Shown piece by piece: positions 13,791 to 19,846 of a stretch of DNA of 20,023 bases. The stretch is from positions 1 through 20,023 of IMG/VR virus record IMGVR_UViG_3300030388_000153; one strand, written 5' to 3'. The stretch is from a virus. Both the position numbers and the translations under genes were made by a program. Under the pieces are notes generated by a model. The model was not told where the DNA came from. It saw only the letters and a list, made by a program, of their open reading frames with translations, and made no database searches. Numbering within the stretch: position 1 is the first letter of the stretch; each line of letters opens with the position of its first letter.

Positions 13791-15300
13791 GATATTTGGA
13801 CCTCCGGGTACAGGTAAGACAACGACGTTGTTAAACATGGTGGACGATGCCTTTGAGAAGGGCGTTCACCCACACAGAATTGCCTTCCTAGCCTTTACGC
13901 GCAAAGCCGCTAACGAGGCCCAAGAGCGGGCCGCTGTGCGCTTTAACCTTGATCCGAAGAAAGACCTAGCCTATTTCCGGACGCTGCATTCTCTGGCGCT
14001 TACAATGACTGACATCCGCCCAGAGCAAGTTATGCAAGAGTCTAACTACCGGGAGCTAGGGACGGCCATTAACGTAGTGTTAGGCGGGTCCAAGAACACA
14101 AGCTTTGATGAAGATGTCCCAAGCATGGTGGCGGGAAGTGACCCTATCCTTGGGCTAATTAACTTAGCACGGTTGCGGAAGGTGGGACTGCGAGAGCAAT
14201 ACAACATCAGCAATATCGAACAGGACTGGAACACGGTTAACTACGTCGATAGTTGCCTGCGCGAATACAAAGACAAGATGGGTATGTACGATTTTACTGA
14301 CATGCTCTCCGAGTTTATCCGTCAGTCCGATAAGTATTGCCCGCAGTTCGATCTGTGCTTCCTAGACGAGGCACAAGACTTGAGCCCCCTTCAGTGGGAC
14401 ATTGCGCATATCCTAGATAAAAACTCCGACCGGATGTACGCGGCGGGAGATGATGACCAAGCAATCTACCGCTGGGCAGGGGCTGACGTAGACCAGTTCA
14501 TTACTTTACCGGGCGGGTCAGAGACACTTTCGCAGTCTTACCGCGTTCCGCAATCCGTACATAAACTGGCAGAGAATGTCGTGCGTAGAATTGCAAACAG
14601 GTTTCCCAAGAGCTACGAGGCAAAGAGTGAGCCCGGCAACGTGACCCGGATCAATTCCGTAAACTCCCTAGACATGTCGCACGGATCTTGGCTTATATTA
14701 GCGCAAGCAGGCTATCAGTTGAGCCCCGTGGCAAATGATTTAAAATCAGGTGGTTACCTGTTTACTCACCGTGGACACCGTTCGATCAGTGAGAAAATAT
14801 CCGACGCAGTGAACGGCTGGGAGCAATTAAGGGCGGGGAAAGAAGTGTCCGGCGAGGTTGTTCGTAAGATTTACAACTTCATGTCTATCGGCAAGCGCGT
14901 CCAACGGGGCTATAAAAAGTTGCCGGGGATGGAAGACGAGGACATGGTTAACATTCAAGGCTTGTTTGTTAACCACGGACTTCTTGCTACAAAGGACATG
15001 ATCTGGTCCGAGGCTATGGACAAGCTACCCGAGACGGACCGAGCCTACGTTACGGCTTTGTTACGACGAGGAGAGAAGTTTAATGGCGTCCCCCGGATTA
15101 CGTCGTCCACGATCCACGGGTCAAAGGGAGGAGAAGCGGATAACGTTGTACTGTTCACGGACCTTAGTCCCGCAGCGGACGAAGCAATGAGGCTTAACCC
15201 AGACGATACCCACCGTGTGTTCTACGTCGGCATCACACGGACCAAGGAAAACTTATACATTGTCGATGCAGAAGATATGTCAAGGAGCTACGAATTATGA
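13783..15300 (+). CDS. UvrD/PcrA-type superfamily 1 DNA helicase
   Basis: It should unwind DNA 3'-5' during phage replication or repair, based on the family. Motifs in order, numbered from ATG 13783 (505 aa): Walker A GPPGTGKTT (6-14), motif Ia FLAFTRKAANEA (35-46), Walker B FLDEAQD (193-199), motif III GDDDQAIYRW (222-231), motif IV SQSYRVP (250-256), motif V STIHGSKGGEADNVVLF (about 455-471) and motif VI VFYVGITRTKENLYI (about 484-498). I chose ATG 13783 because the protein then begins directly before the Walker A loop, as in related phage helicases, and because a longer TTG-initiated frame from 13717 only translates the overlapping HTH gene out of frame. The stop forms ATGA with the next start. 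Confidence 0.93.
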   Translation: MFRIFGPPGTGKTTTLLNMVDDAFEKGVHPHRIAFLAFTRKAANEAQERAAVRFNLDPKKDLAYFRTLHSLALTMTDIRPEQVMQESNYRELGTAINVVLGGSKNTSFDEDVPSMVAGSDPILGLINLARLRKVGLREQYNISNIEQDWNTVNYVDSCLREYKDKMGMYDFTDMLSEFIRQSDKYCPQFDLCFLDEAQDLSPLQWDIAHILDKNSDRMYAAGDDDQAIYRWAGADVDQFITLPGGSETLSQSYRVPQSVHKLAENVVRRIANRFPKSYEAKSEPGNVTRINSVNSLDMSHGSWLILAQAGYQLSPVANDLKSGGYLFTHRGHRSISEKISDAVNGWEQLRAGKEVSGEVVRKIYNFMSIGKRVQRGYKKLPGMEDEDMVNIQGLFVNHGLLATKDMIWSEAMDKLPETDRAYVTALLRRGEKFNGVPRITSSTIHGSKGGEADNVVLFTDLSPAADEAMRLNPDDTHRVFYVGITRTKENLYIVDAEDMSRSYEL

Positions 15301-15500
15301 AGAAAGTCACATGGACCCAGTACAAGGGTATGATGGAAGCGATTGATGAGCAGGGGTTTGTTTCAGACATCGAGTCCTACCGTGTTCGATCAAAGTGGTT
15401 AACTACCTCGGACGAAGACCTGCCCGCCCTCACTCTTGAGTGGGATGAAGAGTTAAACGATTACGTTGTAACTGGTCACATTAACCAAGTGGTGCATTAA
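15297..15500 (+). CDS. Small hypothetical protein (67 aa)
   Basis: Function unknown. The ATG overlaps the helicase stop (ATGA), which is typical of translational coupling. The product is acidic overall and has no Cys, membrane segment or recognisable motif. The second half, with ALTLEWDEELNDYVVTGHI, looks like beta strands. Its position in the replication/lysis block and the preserved tight overlap are the main support for a real gene. Confidence 0.7.
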   Translation: MKKVTWTQYKGMMEAIDEQGFVSDIESYRVRSKWLTTSDEDLPALTLEWDEELNDYVVTGHINQVVH

Positions 15501-15501
15501 A

Positions 15502-15582
15502 ATGATTAAGGTTTTAGCTCCGTGGGTAATTTTATTTGCCTACATTCTTATCGGCGTAACCGTAGCGGCGAGTTTCTTTTGA
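15502..15582 (+). CDS. Possible 26-residue membrane peptide before the lysis gene
   Basis: An ATG one base after the previous stop opens 26 codons that encode a short Lys-containing start followed by an almost uninterrupted hydrophobic stretch (about residues 5-26), enough for one membrane span. Its TGA overlaps a TTG that could start the SleB gene (TTGA). A single-span micro-protein directly before a cell-wall hydrolase could be a holin-like or regulatory peptide. The Shine-Dalgarno is poor, and the same bases can be read in another frame as the N-terminus of the hydrolase, so this is tentative. Confidence 0.35.
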   Translation: MIKVLAPWVILFAYILIGVTVAASFF

Positions 15583-16019
15583 TAGCCGCAGCCGCCTGTC
15601 TATCTCTGGCACTCTACCATGAGGCCAGAGGTGAACCGCTTTTAGGTCAGTTGATGGTTGCAAGAGTTATTGTTAACCGCATGGAGTCACCTCGGTGGCC
15701 GTCTTCGATGTGCAATGTTATTACGCAAGACCGTCAGTTTTCGTTTTACCGAAAGGGTAATGCACCTAAACCTAGAGACGAAGTGGCTTGGGCCAAGGCT
15801 CAGAAACTTGCGGTTGAGATCATAAACGATCCCGGCATCTTGCCGTACAGCACTTCTAATCATTATCATACACCAAATGTTTTTCCAGTTTGGCGCAAGG
15901 GACTTCACATGATTGCGCGTATTGGAAACCATATCTTCTATTCTTATGACCACCCGACAGCCGTGAAGACTAGCGTCAGGCCCGAGATACGGCCTTCTTA
16001 TCTGGAGATTATAAAATGA
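15522..16019 (+). CDS. SleB-type cell wall hydrolase (endolysin candidate)
   Basis: The family cleaves peptidoglycan glycan strands (lytic transglycosylase-type, known from spore SleB and many phage endolysins). The signature LYHEARGEPLLGQLMVARVI starts at residue 31; E34 is the expected catalytic Glu. VNRMESPRWP and a QFSF motif follow, and NHYH sits near the C-terminal third. The start is uncertain. GTG 15522 has AAGG ten bases upstream and gives an Arg-rich N-terminus plus an Ala-rich hydrophobic stretch (18-31) resembling a signal-anchor. TTG 15579 overlaps the stop of the possible 26-residue peptide and gives a 146-residue protein beginning right at the domain. Its stop overlaps the next ATG. 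Host lysis is the likeliest job. Confidence 0.88.
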   Translation: MGNFICLHSYRRNRSGEFLLIAAAACLSLALYHEARGEPLLGQLMVARVIVNRMESPRWPSSMCNVITQDRQFSFYRKGNAPKPRDEVAWAKAQKLAVEIINDPGILPYSTSNHYHTPNVFPVWRKGLHMIARIGNHIFYSYDHPTAVKTSVRPEIRPSYLEIIK

Positions 16020-16372
16020 AGCGTGATGAAGTATTAGACAAAGCTAAAGAACTGATTAACGGCCAACGCGCCAAGGATTATGGTGACGCTTACGAAAACC
16101 ATGGGCGTATTGCTGACGGCTGGAACATCATTATGAACGGGGCACTAAAGAGCCATGGGTTTCTAACCCCGGCCCACGTTGCTTTAATGATGGATTGGGT
16201 AAAGACCAGTCGTCTTGTCGAGACAATTGACCATGAGGACTCGTGGATTGATAAAGCCGGTTACACTGGCTTGGGAGCAGAGTTTGTCGAAAAAGACGGA
16301 CGCCCTGTAAATAAAATTATTGAGGAAGTAAAAACTAATGGCAAATTTGCAAATGGCTATGTTCGCCCCTAA
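16016..16372 (+). CDS. DUF6378-like phage protein
   Basis: I recognise the pattern of a phage family I know as DUF6378: a short helical protein with RAKDYGDAYENHGRIADGW (about 19-37), an alpha-helical core HVALMMDWVKTSRLVET, and a closing HEDSWIDKAGYTGLGAEF (about 74-91). The acidic/His-rich motifs and all-helical build recall MazG-like nucleotide pyrophosphatases, which would suit a nucleotide-pool role, but that comparison is my inference and no reaction is established. GGAG about 8 bases upstream supports the ATG, which overlaps the hydrolase stop as ATGA. Its last 35 bases overlap the polymerase start. Confidence 0.8.
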   Translation: MKRDEVLDKAKELINGQRAKDYGDAYENHGRIADGWNIIMNGALKSHGFLTPAHVALMMDWVKTSRLVETIDHEDSWIDKAGYTGLGAEFVEKDGRPVNKIIEEVKTNGKFANGYVRP

Positions 16373-18233
16373 AAGTGAGTGGGTTCCGCCGTTGGAGCTT
16401 CCAGACATCACGTCTGCTCGTACAATCGCAATTGACGTGGAAACACGGGACCCGAACCTTAAAAAGAACGGTCCCGGCTGGCCTACAAAGGACGGCGAAG
16501 TCATTGGCTATGCCGTTGCAGTAGACGGTTGGTCTTGCTATCTGCCTACCCGTCACCTTGGCGGCGGTAACTTAGACGAGAAAATCGTTAACAAGTGGCT
16601 CAAGAAAGTGTTCGAGTGTCCTGCCGATAAGGTAATGCACAACGCCCAGTACGACTTGGGATGGATTAGAGCCATGGGCTTTCAGATGAATGGCCGGGTA
16701 ATTGACACCATGCTGGTTGCAGCACTGCTCGACGAGAACCGGTTTAGCTACAGCCTAAACGCTTTATGCTACGATCTTCTTAACAAGACAAAATCCGAAA
16801 AAGGATTAACTGCGGCGGCTCGTGAGTTTGGGATCGACCCCAAAGCCGAGATGTGGAAGATGCCCGCGATGTATGTGGGCCCATACGCTGAAGCTGACGC
16901 CGAGCTAACCCTAGAGCTTTGGAGCTATCTCTCTATACAACTTAGCCGCGAAGACCTGTGGCCTATTGCTAACCTTGAGCTAGAATTACTTCCCTGTCTT
17001 GTTGATATGACATGGCGAGGGGTTCGTGTGGATACGAACCGCGTCGAGAGAACACGGGACGCCCTGCTCAAGCGCGAGAAAAGTGTGATGCAGGAAATTA
17101 AGCGTGTGGCCGGGACCGATGTAGAAATCTGGGCGGCGCAATCTCTTTCTAAAGCATTTGATAAACTCGACATCAACTACCCCCAGACCGAGAAAGGTGC
17201 CCCGAGCTTTACAAAACTGTTCTTATCGGAACACCCACATCCGCTCGCGAAACTTGTTGTTGAAGCACGGAACCTAAACAAGACATCCGGTACATTTATC
17301 AACTCCATTATGAAGCACTGCCGGACCGATGGCAGAATACATGGGCACATAAACCAAATCCGCTCGGACGATGGTGGTACAGTGTCGGGCAGAATTTCTA
17401 TGTCCAACCCTAACTTACAACAAATCCCGGCCCGCGACCCAGAGCTTGGTCCTATGATCCGTTCGTTGTTTCTCCCGGAAGAAGGCGAACAGTGGGCGGC
17501 CATTGACTTCTCGCAACAAGAACCACGCATCTTGGTGCATTACGCTCATGTTTATGGGCGCAACCGTGGGGTGCCGCTCGACGGTGCGGCGGACTTTGTT
17601 AAGGCGTACAACGAAGACCCGTCTACGGACTTCCATACAATGGTCGCGGAAATGGCTAACATTCCCAGAAAGCAAGCCAAGACGATCAATCTTGGTATGA
17701 TGTACGGCATGGGCGTTAACAAACTGTCAGAACAGTTAGACATCCCGGTCGAAGACGCGAAGGGACTGGTTCATCAGTACCATGAGCGTGTGCCGTTCGT
17801 TAAAGGATTGATGCGCGGTGTGATGAACCGGTTGAACGAGAAATCTTCGGGCGGCTCTCTGCGCTCACTGGCGGGCCGTAAAGCGCGGTTCGAGCTTTGG
17901 GAACCTGACACGTTCGCAATGAACAAGGCACTACCGTACAAGGAGGCTGTGGACGCCTACGGGCCAACCACGCGACTAAAGCGGGCGTTCACTTATAAGG
18001 CGATGAACAGGCTCATCCAAGCGTCGGCGGCGGATATGACAAAGCAAGCGATGGTCAACCTGTACAAAGCTGGGCACATCCCAATGGTGCAAATCCACGA
18101 CGAGATTGCTATGTCGGTCAAAACTCTTGACGAGGCACAAGAAATCGCTAGGATTATGGAGACGGCAATACCTCTTGAAGTTCCGAGTAAATGTGATGTT
18201 GAAATCGGACCGTCATGGGGTGAAGCTAAATAG
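16338..18233 (+). CDS. Family A DNA polymerase with 3'-5' exonuclease
   Basis: This is the replicative DNA polymerase of the phage, related to Pol I/T7 gp5. The proofreading domain has D33/E35 (IDVET, Exo I), N102 and D106 (HNAQYD, Exo II) and Y183/D187 (YAEAD, Exo III), so it should be active. Polymerase motif A is AIDFSQQEPRI (D390), motif B is RKQAKTINLGMMYG (R444, K448, Y456) and motif C is IHDE (H587-E589). The residue equivalent to E. coli Pol I Phe762 is Leu452. There is no 5'-3' exonuclease domain and no DnaJ insertion. The chosen ATG has GAGGA about 11 bases upstream and overlaps the previous gene by 35 bases; ATGs at codons 6 and 8 are alternatives. A terminator follows. Confidence 0.96.
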   Translation: MANLQMAMFAPKSEWVPPLELPDITSARTIAIDVETRDPNLKKNGPGWPTKDGEVIGYAVAVDGWSCYLPTRHLGGGNLDEKIVNKWLKKVFECPADKVMHNAQYDLGWIRAMGFQMNGRVIDTMLVAALLDENRFSYSLNALCYDLLNKTKSEKGLTAAAREFGIDPKAEMWKMPAMYVGPYAEADAELTLELWSYLSIQLSREDLWPIANLELELLPCLVDMTWRGVRVDTNRVERTRDALLKREKSVMQEIKRVAGTDVEIWAAQSLSKAFDKLDINYPQTEKGAPSFTKLFLSEHPHPLAKLVVEARNLNKTSGTFINSIMKHCRTDGRIHGHINQIRSDDGGTVSGRISMSNPNLQQIPARDPELGPMIRSLFLPEEGEQWAAIDFSQQEPRILVHYAHVYGRNRGVPLDGAADFVKAYNEDPSTDFHTMVAEMANIPRKQAKTINLGMMYGMGVNKLSEQLDIPVEDAKGLVHQYHERVPFVKGLMRGVMNRLNEKSSGGSLRSLAGRKARFELWEPDTFAMNKALPYKEAVDAYGPTTRLKRAFTYKAMNRLIQASAADMTKQAMVNLYKAGHIPMVQIHDEIAMSVKTLDEAQEIARIMETAIPLEVPSKCDVEIGPSWGEAK

Positions 18234-19432: not shown

Positions 19433-19846
19433 ATGGCCTTAATCGACATCTACAGAGTTTGTGAAATAACTAAACTTTCGAGATCAACTATATATAATAA
19501 AGTAAAAAGCGAAGACTTCCCGGCACCGGACAAAGTTCCGAGCCCAAGCTCCCGCGGACCACGGCTCGTGAACCGTTGGGATGAAAAAGAAGTGCAAAAC
19601 TGGGTGGAAGCGCAGTTTAAACGATGGGAAGAAAATTCTCCGGAATGGATAAACCGGTTGAAGGAGCAAGATACCTTAAAAGCTTCGTATGGTGATGACT
19701 TCCTTGCAGAAGCACGAATTTCCGAAGGGTTAAGCGTATTCGGTTGGGACGAACCCGAAGCCATGTGGAAAAAATATTCCCCGTATTTAAAGACCGTCGT
19801 TGCAATAGTCATTATCGCGGCAGTTATTAAATTTGCCGTCTTCTGA
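19433..19846 (+). CDS. AlpA-like DNA-binding protein with C-terminal membrane anchor
   Basis: Residues 3-60 form an AlpA/excisionase-type winged helix: LIDIYRVCEITKLSRSTIYNKV (3-24) with the classical STIYNKV recognition helix, DFPAPDKV, then RLVNRWDEKEVQNWV (44-58), where the W and the ExVxxW ending are typical. A polar middle with YGDDFLAEARISEGLSVFGWD follows. The last 19 residues (119-137) are a strong membrane segment ending at the C-terminus, preceded by KK and Y/K residues. A tail-anchored AlpA-like protein is unusual; the family is normally soluble and regulates prophage or excision genes. AGGAGA at 19422-19427 is the ribosome-binding site, and the stop overlaps the next ATG (TGATG). 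No integrase is in view to pair with it. Confidence 0.8.
   Translation: MALIDIYRVCEITKLSRSTIYNKVKSEDFPAPDKVPSPSSRGPRLVNRWDEKEVQNWVEAQFKRWEENSPEWINRLKEQDTLKASYGDDFLAEARISEGLSVFGWDEPEAMWKKYSPYLKTVVAIVIIAAVIKFAVF

Follow-up and report, generated by a model that had tools for sequence, protein, structure and literature searches.

A conserved 26-residue single-span peptide paired with a SleB-type cell wall hydrolase in environmental phages: a candidate holin-like or release peptide

Introduction

The T holin of phage T4, a class III holin, combines one membrane span with a large periplasmic domain, and the hydrophobic type I toxin peptides TisB and IbsC consist of a single span of about 19–29 amino acids. 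In the excerpts of PMC12283622 used here, class I holins are longer than 95 amino acids, class II holins measure 65–95 amino acids and class III is given no size. The S21-68 pinholin of phage 21 crosses the membrane twice and is able to release a SAR endolysin, as stated in the sections consulted of PMC7312051 and PMC9239132. The latter source, in the same sections, describes the gp25 releasin of phage Mu (DUF2730) as a protein of 99 amino acids with a predicted N-out/C-in topology and a 73-residue cytoplasmic domain, which acts on a SAR endolysin.

We describe here a peptide of 26 residues encoded immediately before a SleB-type hydrolase in a virus record of 20,023 bases, referred to below as the window. 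The peptide resembles class III holins in having one span and a gene tied to that of an endolysin, with an N-in/C-out topology expected from its positive N-terminus, but almost nothing flanks this span whereas T4 T carries a large domain in the periplasm. With S21-68 it shares a small size and a membrane helix that may pack against its own kind; it differs by having one span instead of two and a SleB partner without SAR domain. Like gp25, it is a one-span, non-enzyme partner of an endolysin, although peptides of 25–30 amino acids lack the cytoplasmic domain of about 70 residues that, together with an N-terminal span, defines Mu-type releasins. Size and single span are also those of TisB and IbsC, from which the peptide gene differs by overlapping a wall hydrolase gene. 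The downstream enzyme belongs with the SleB/Hydrolase_2 endolysins (PF07486, phrog_938) and departs from them by a TTG start overlapping the micro-gene and by the lack of a recognised signal peptide. No SleB-coupled peptide of such size was found among the top-listed papers of open-access literature searches, and print outside open access may differ.

Results

The window opens with two very large proteins, weakly similar to two proteins of phage DSL-LC04, one hypothetical and the other labelled "DNA transfer", followed by a 461-aa protein, a SNF2-type helicase on the minus strand and two proteins resembling primase-adjacent genes of DSL-LC04. Next come the primase, the UvrD helicase, a 67-aa ORF, the peptide, SleB, a DUF6378 protein and DNA polymerase A (Table 1). 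DSL-LC04 (61.5 kb, Dishui Lake) was the best match in the phage collection (PolA 57%, primase 52%), and its UvrD and PolA genes overlap by 4 nt with no gene between them. In the window and in contigs G002–G006, the peptide-SleB module lies between UvrD and PolA and not with late genes, while G007–G011 are SleB contigs without match to the PolA, UvrD or primase of the window. A search for the missing part of the genome with a 1406-aa protein returned no relative.

Table 1. Features of the peptide-hydrolase locus in the window.
Feature	Coordinates	Strand	Remarks
67-aa ORF	15297..15500	+	Separated from the peptide ATG by 1 nt; matched nothing in Pfam or PHROGs
Single-span membrane peptide gene, family A, 26 aa	15502..15582	+	ATG start, TGA stop; conserved; pN/pS 0.349
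Putative GTG extension of SleB	15522..15578	+	Rejected as coding
TTGA overlap of peptide stop and SleB TTG start	15579..15582	+	4-nt overlap in 44/44 loci
SleB-type cell wall hydrolase, 146 aa	15579..16019	+	TTG start; PF07486, phrog_938; neither signal peptide nor anchor recognised
Hydrophobic N-terminal helix of SleB, residues 2–16	15582..15626	+	Carries the first conserved Glu
DUF6378 protein	16016..16372	+	Start overlaps the SleB stop (ATGA)

L202 (G005) contains two DUF6378-PolA pairs (237–2449 and 14383–16610; 72% and 50% identity to the PolA of the window), which correspond either to a chimeric assembly or to two polymerases. In L194/L195 (G001), where PolA and primase are 92% and 93% identical to those of the window, SleB (61%) stands at another place and a peptide match was looked for and not found; from this comparison SleB appears to move between sites.

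An initial annotation of the locus had placed an ATG at 15502, a TGA ending at 15582, an overlapping TTG at 15579 and a GTG at 15522, and all of these were recovered. The ATG opens 26 codons (MIKVLAPWVILFAYILIGVTVAASFF), closed by the TGA at 15580–15582. The best 19-residue window of the peptide has a Kyte-Doolittle (KD) value of 2.37 and the hydrophobic span is kept in relatives, so that the peptide possesses the one or more transmembrane spans expected of a holin. Its relatives are single-span peptides of 25, 26 or 30 amino acids (29 in L034). Among 13 aligned peptides drawn from two SleB clades, W8, Y14, V19, A23 and F25 are invariant and a Lys at position 3 is nearly so; by eye, a small-xxx-small pattern running from G/A18 to A/T/G22 is usual in the alignment, L019 having an Ile at position 18. 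No resemblance to a known holin family emerged from Pfam, PHROGs or phage records: 14 peptide members gave no Pfam match up to E 10 and nothing significant in PHROGs (two single-member matches at E 0.23 and 1.4, neither described), and the peptide gave no match up to E 10 in the phage-record collection. The GTDB genome contigs yielded 143 pattern matches and no relative.

The DNA preceding the SleB domain had been given two readings, a hydrophobic single-span micro-protein or, from GTG 15522, a signal-anchor N-terminus of the hydrolase, to be told apart by frame-by-frame substitution patterns in relatives. Searching with the hydrolase gave 335 relatives, and the analysis continued with the best 80. 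For 23 distinct DNAs, the micro frame had a pN/pS of 0.348, the hydrolase frame 1.033, the third frame 1.617 and SleB codons 2–41 0.123. When 25 distinct DNAs were reduced to 16 representatives, each below 93% identity and with the second SleB clade included, the values were 0.349 for the micro frame, 1.018 for the GTG/hydrolase-extension frame and 1.484 for the third, which favours the micro-protein. Column shuffling produced a mean of 0.835 (sd 0.174); values as low as the observed one were reached in 0/1000 shuffles for the micro frame, 859/1000 for the extension frame and 997/1000 for the third, this test leaving the kinship of the sequences in, so that the comparison between frames in one alignment is the stronger point. 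Judged from its relatives, the 26-aa ORF is a genuine gene and more than a chance opening, its frame being conserved as amino acids, and the micro frame appears to be under purifying selection.

The GTG at 15522 opens a frame of 165 codons running into the SleB domain. It is made of the last base of peptide codon 7 (CCG) and the first two bases of the Trp codon TGG, and the triplet at this position in 23 distinct peptide-bearing sequences is GTG in 13, ATG in 6, CTG in 3 and TTG in one, a mixture that is expected because it contains the wobble base of a peptide codon. The frame from this position is stop-free in these 23 sequences and 20 of them offer ATG, GTG or TTG, the other three having CTG, an unusual start. 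The openness is nevertheless expected from the composition of the peptide, since the extension stayed open in 91.8% of random synonymous recodings. In addition, 36 of 78 SleB sequences have a stop at most 17 codons upstream of the YHEARGE/EARGE motif, which excludes a long extension for those (41 of the others are open further and L018 runs off its locus). The stretch read from the GTG (FLLIAAAACLSLALY) is hydrophobic, with a 15-mer KD of 2.38, but it coincides with helix 1 of the enzyme, which bears the conserved Glu. SAR endolysins are typified by an N-terminal span, weakly hydrophobic and about 20 residues long, that lies outside the catalytic fold. SleB lacks such a span: from the TTG, HEARGE is preceded by just 13 residues, modelled as SleB helix 1.

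The hydrolase matched Pfam Hydrolase_2 (PF07486) at 2.1e-22 (80.1 bits, for a cut-off of 27) as well as the endolysin family phrog_938, and the SleB family profile matched two distinct PDB sequences, both SleB. Its AlphaFold2 model (mean pLDDT 87.8) was aligned by Foldseek with PDB 4fet/4f55 (TMt 0.73–0.78). Given a profile score above the gathering threshold, a SleB fold, and a conserved core in which the EARGE motif and other residues are invariant, the enzyme is a clear SleB/Hydrolase_2 member with a predicted wall-cutting activity. The Ala-rich stretch forms helix 2–16 and aligns, from about residue 6, with a segment of the catalytic domain of 4f55. Read from the TTG, the best 19-mer of SleB has a KD of 0.73 against 2.37 for the peptide, and SleB therefore shows no anchor. 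In close relatives, stops upstream of the motif place the SleB start about 11–14 codons before it, with ATG, GTG or TTG; one start selection was confined to 12–18 codons before the Glu and thus is no independent test. In the window, the start of the hydrolase is TTG 15579. SleBs of other phages (L138, L139, L160, L165 and L176) carry N-terminal hydrophobic leaders resembling secretion signals, which look like an alternative export route.

Searching IMG/VR with a peptide profile in two patterns returned 44 loci, and every one of them has a 4-nt overlap between the peptide stop and the start of SleB (TTGA in 34, GTGA in 10), a genetic association with an endolysin gene as expected of a holin, bearing in mind that one pattern contains the C-terminal Phe-Phe/Leu beside the overlap and may favour this arrangement. 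On the SleB side, EARGE was present in 42 loci and ESRGE in L003, and the L302 locus ends after 13 SleB residues. No Shine-Dalgarno-like sequence was visible by eye at the SleB start, and we infer that translation of the two genes may be coupled. By our own tally, the peptide occurs in 47 IMG/VR contigs besides the window, many of them near-identical (43 distinct including the window, to which L003 and four contigs from the profile search were added). Within the best 80 of the 335 SleB loci, it was present in 34 (33 by pattern and L003 by tblastn) and absent from 44, L018 and L079 beginning inside SleB and not being judgeable; SleB can therefore manage without the peptide. The gene upstream of the pair varies (UvrD, HTH, ORFs of 61, 77 or 67 aa, and others). 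L015 (HTH, peptide, SleB) differs from L001 and L002 (HTH, SleB) by about 78 bp that were cleanly gained or lost, the 4-nt overlaps being preserved on both sides; in L001 and L002 the HTH gene overlaps SleB directly (GTGA). The evidence for pairing is strong, and we regard the peptide and SleB as one functional module.

The statement that no other holin is visible in the window held for the small ORFs: among those recovered by a scan (18–130 aa, an 18-residue window of KD at least 1.9), the peptide is the only one on the plus strand, the rest being on the minus strand. A 137-aa protein (19433–19846, plus strand) combines an AlpA-like helix-turn-helix (PF05930) with a C-terminal membrane span; it has a 43% relative in G001, and relatives in L059–L066 likewise end in a span. 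A membrane-tethered regulator, as this protein may be read, would be unusual.

Since the window covers 20,023 bases and the nearest isolate 61.5 kb, this phage may well encode a holin outside the window and could carry a canonical lysis cassette beyond the 20 kb seen. In DSL-LC04, the structural half of the genome encodes a 3-TM holin (PF11351) and an M15 peptidase. The initial annotation was to be abandoned if a separate conserved holin existed elsewhere and both frames were lost in relatives; the separate holin of the nearest isolate and the 44 of 80 loci without peptide answer only half of that description. Some members of the wider group have an M15 endolysin ahead of the stabilisation gene, and its C-terminus was found in G008, where the peptide is present, and in G010 and G011, where it is absent. 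That of G008 lies at the contig edge (59% over 54 aa), so that the pair is not always the sole wall hydrolase, and the proposal that peptide-bearing phages have no wall hydrolase other than SleB was not upheld.

The peptide-bearing contig G003 was extended through L213 (4302-nt overlap at 100%; 25.5 kb and 7.6 kb), and tblastn of these approximately 33 kb with three queries for M15 and one for a 3-TM holin yielded no match at E 1e-3; ten selected ORFs of this phage matched no lysis family in PHROGs. Another candidate for the holin of this phage is an 80-aa protein of L213 (147–389), whose N-terminal stretch is moderately hydrophobic (KD 1.66). The extension through L213 came from a search with the G003 stabilisation protein, which hit more than 594 places and was followed up on the best 80. 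Of 17 records chosen from these matches, none yielded SleB, in a search that had no positive control.

Other tiny single-span ORFs were observed in these phages and form two families, B with 31–35 aa (MDWGDWEDKIIF...) and C with 33 aa (MNLTDFAALIGF...). They occur in L001, L002, L010, L015, L111–L116 and others, mostly 1.1–2.6 kb upstream of SleB, with one in L007 lying 3.9 kb downstream; one member of each family had no match in PHROGs. Of the 58 sequences, counting the window, that have 2 kb or more of upstream DNA, 25 carried the peptide (family A) only, 2 A and B, 4 A and C, 8 B only, 3 B and C, and 16 none; L015, left out for its shorter upstream part, carries all three. These mixed combinations do not amount to a clean replacement, and a strict swap of the peptide with families B and C was rejected. 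A protein of 91–95 aa with a strong C-terminal span (...KEILTGVAVTVLIVAFLVIMLAM) was also noticed 2.2–3.8 kb downstream of SleB in L011, L017, L020, L039, L048 and L049, and its L011 member had no PHROGs match.

Discussion

The micro-protein reading of the initial annotation is borne out by the low pN/pS of its own frame (0.349) and by its conservation in relatives. Because relatives point to a genuine peptide gene that accompanies its enzyme, the peptide probably helps the enzyme to reach or break the envelope. Most likely it would help SleB to act across the inner membrane, and a role in export or membrane disruption is plausible. By analogy with known lysis proteins, we tentatively propose, with slightly less than even confidence, that the peptide serves SleB as a minimal holin-like or release factor, the two possibly forming a second or auxiliary lysis module. 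The micro-gene would be translated just before SleB, probably in a coupled manner; the peptide would insert with its Lys-bearing N-terminus in the cytoplasm and might assemble in the membrane, in keeping with the small-xxx-small pattern, and the membrane would be made permeable, or SleB otherwise let through to the peptidoglycan.

Purifying selection, the invariant residues, the 44/44 pairing behind varied upstream genes, a SleB without its own span, and the lack of M15 or 3-TM holin match in G003 and L213 all speak for this holin-like reading. Against it, the peptide is far shorter than the class I and II sizes given in the consulted part of PMC12283622, the module of the window and of G002–G006 is located among replication genes, and one of the other tiny single-span ORFs of these phages could be the holin. 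Also against it, and against a role as sole holin, are the SleB loci lacking the peptide, the M15 C-terminus in G008 and the 3-TM holin and M15 peptidase of DSL-LC04. It is doubtful that the peptide alone, encoded by a module of about 78 bp that is cleanly gained and lost between overlapping genes, acts as holin or as dedicated membrane-passage factor for a signal-less SleB. The loci without peptide and the M15 gene of G008 argue for a peptide that is auxiliary or replaceable rather than essential.

A canonical holin outside the window may instead make the holes, the peptide tuning this separate lysis system as an antiholin, pinholin-like or releasin-like factor. We consider this unlikely, although the 3-TM holin and M15 peptidase of DSL-LC04, the M15 C-termini that precede the stabilisation gene of G008, G010 and G011 and the frequent absence of the peptide (44 of the best 80 SleB loci) would fit, and non-classical one-span lysis proteins are documented in the available parts of PMC9239132 (Mu gp25 releasin) and PMC13056207 (mycobacteriophage LysF1b). 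The peptide is nonetheless paired with SleB in all loci of the peptide search, the 33 kb of G003/L213 have no M15 or 3-TM holin match, and it has no counterpart of the 73-residue cytoplasmic domain of the Mu releasin.

The location between UvrD and PolA in the window and G002–G006, together with the second endolysin of G008, raises a less probable alternative, in which the pair serves an earlier step from a replication operon (wall remodelling or superinfection exclusion) and not terminal lysis. T7 gp3.5, which sits among replication genes, offers a positional parallel. This alternative agrees poorly with the SleB contigs G007–G011, which lack a match to the PolA, UvrD and primase of the window, and with the conserved core residues kept in SleB.

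It is quite improbable that the ORF is a mere translation-coupling leader for a weak TTG/GTG start, encoding a functionless peptide. The constant 4-nt overlap and the lack of a visible Shine-Dalgarno at the SleB start are in line with such a leader, as is the overlap of SleB with another gene (GTGA after the HTH gene) when the peptide is missing. However, selection acts on the amino acids, and invariant residues, a hydrophobic span and a length of 25–30 aa are kept; moreover, no leader is needed where the upstream gene overlaps SleB directly, as in L001 and L002. Hardly credible, finally, is a SleB starting at GTG 15522 as a SAR-like endolysin, the signal-anchor reading of the initial annotation, which we rejected on frame statistics (pN/pS of about 1.0), the contradicting upstream stops in 36/78 sequences and the structure, where the hydrophobic stretch is SleB helix 1.

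Whatever the role of the peptide, this case shows that relatives can resolve a two-frame ambiguity and correct the start codon of an endolysin. Should the peptide act as holin or release factor, such proteins could be smaller than the limit known so far, and the pair would represent a compact two-gene module for the passage of an enzyme by means of a bare helix. In that event, because the family has no significant match in Pfam, PHROGs or phage records, our results suggest that lysis genes below the usual gene-calling length are overlooked in environmental phages.
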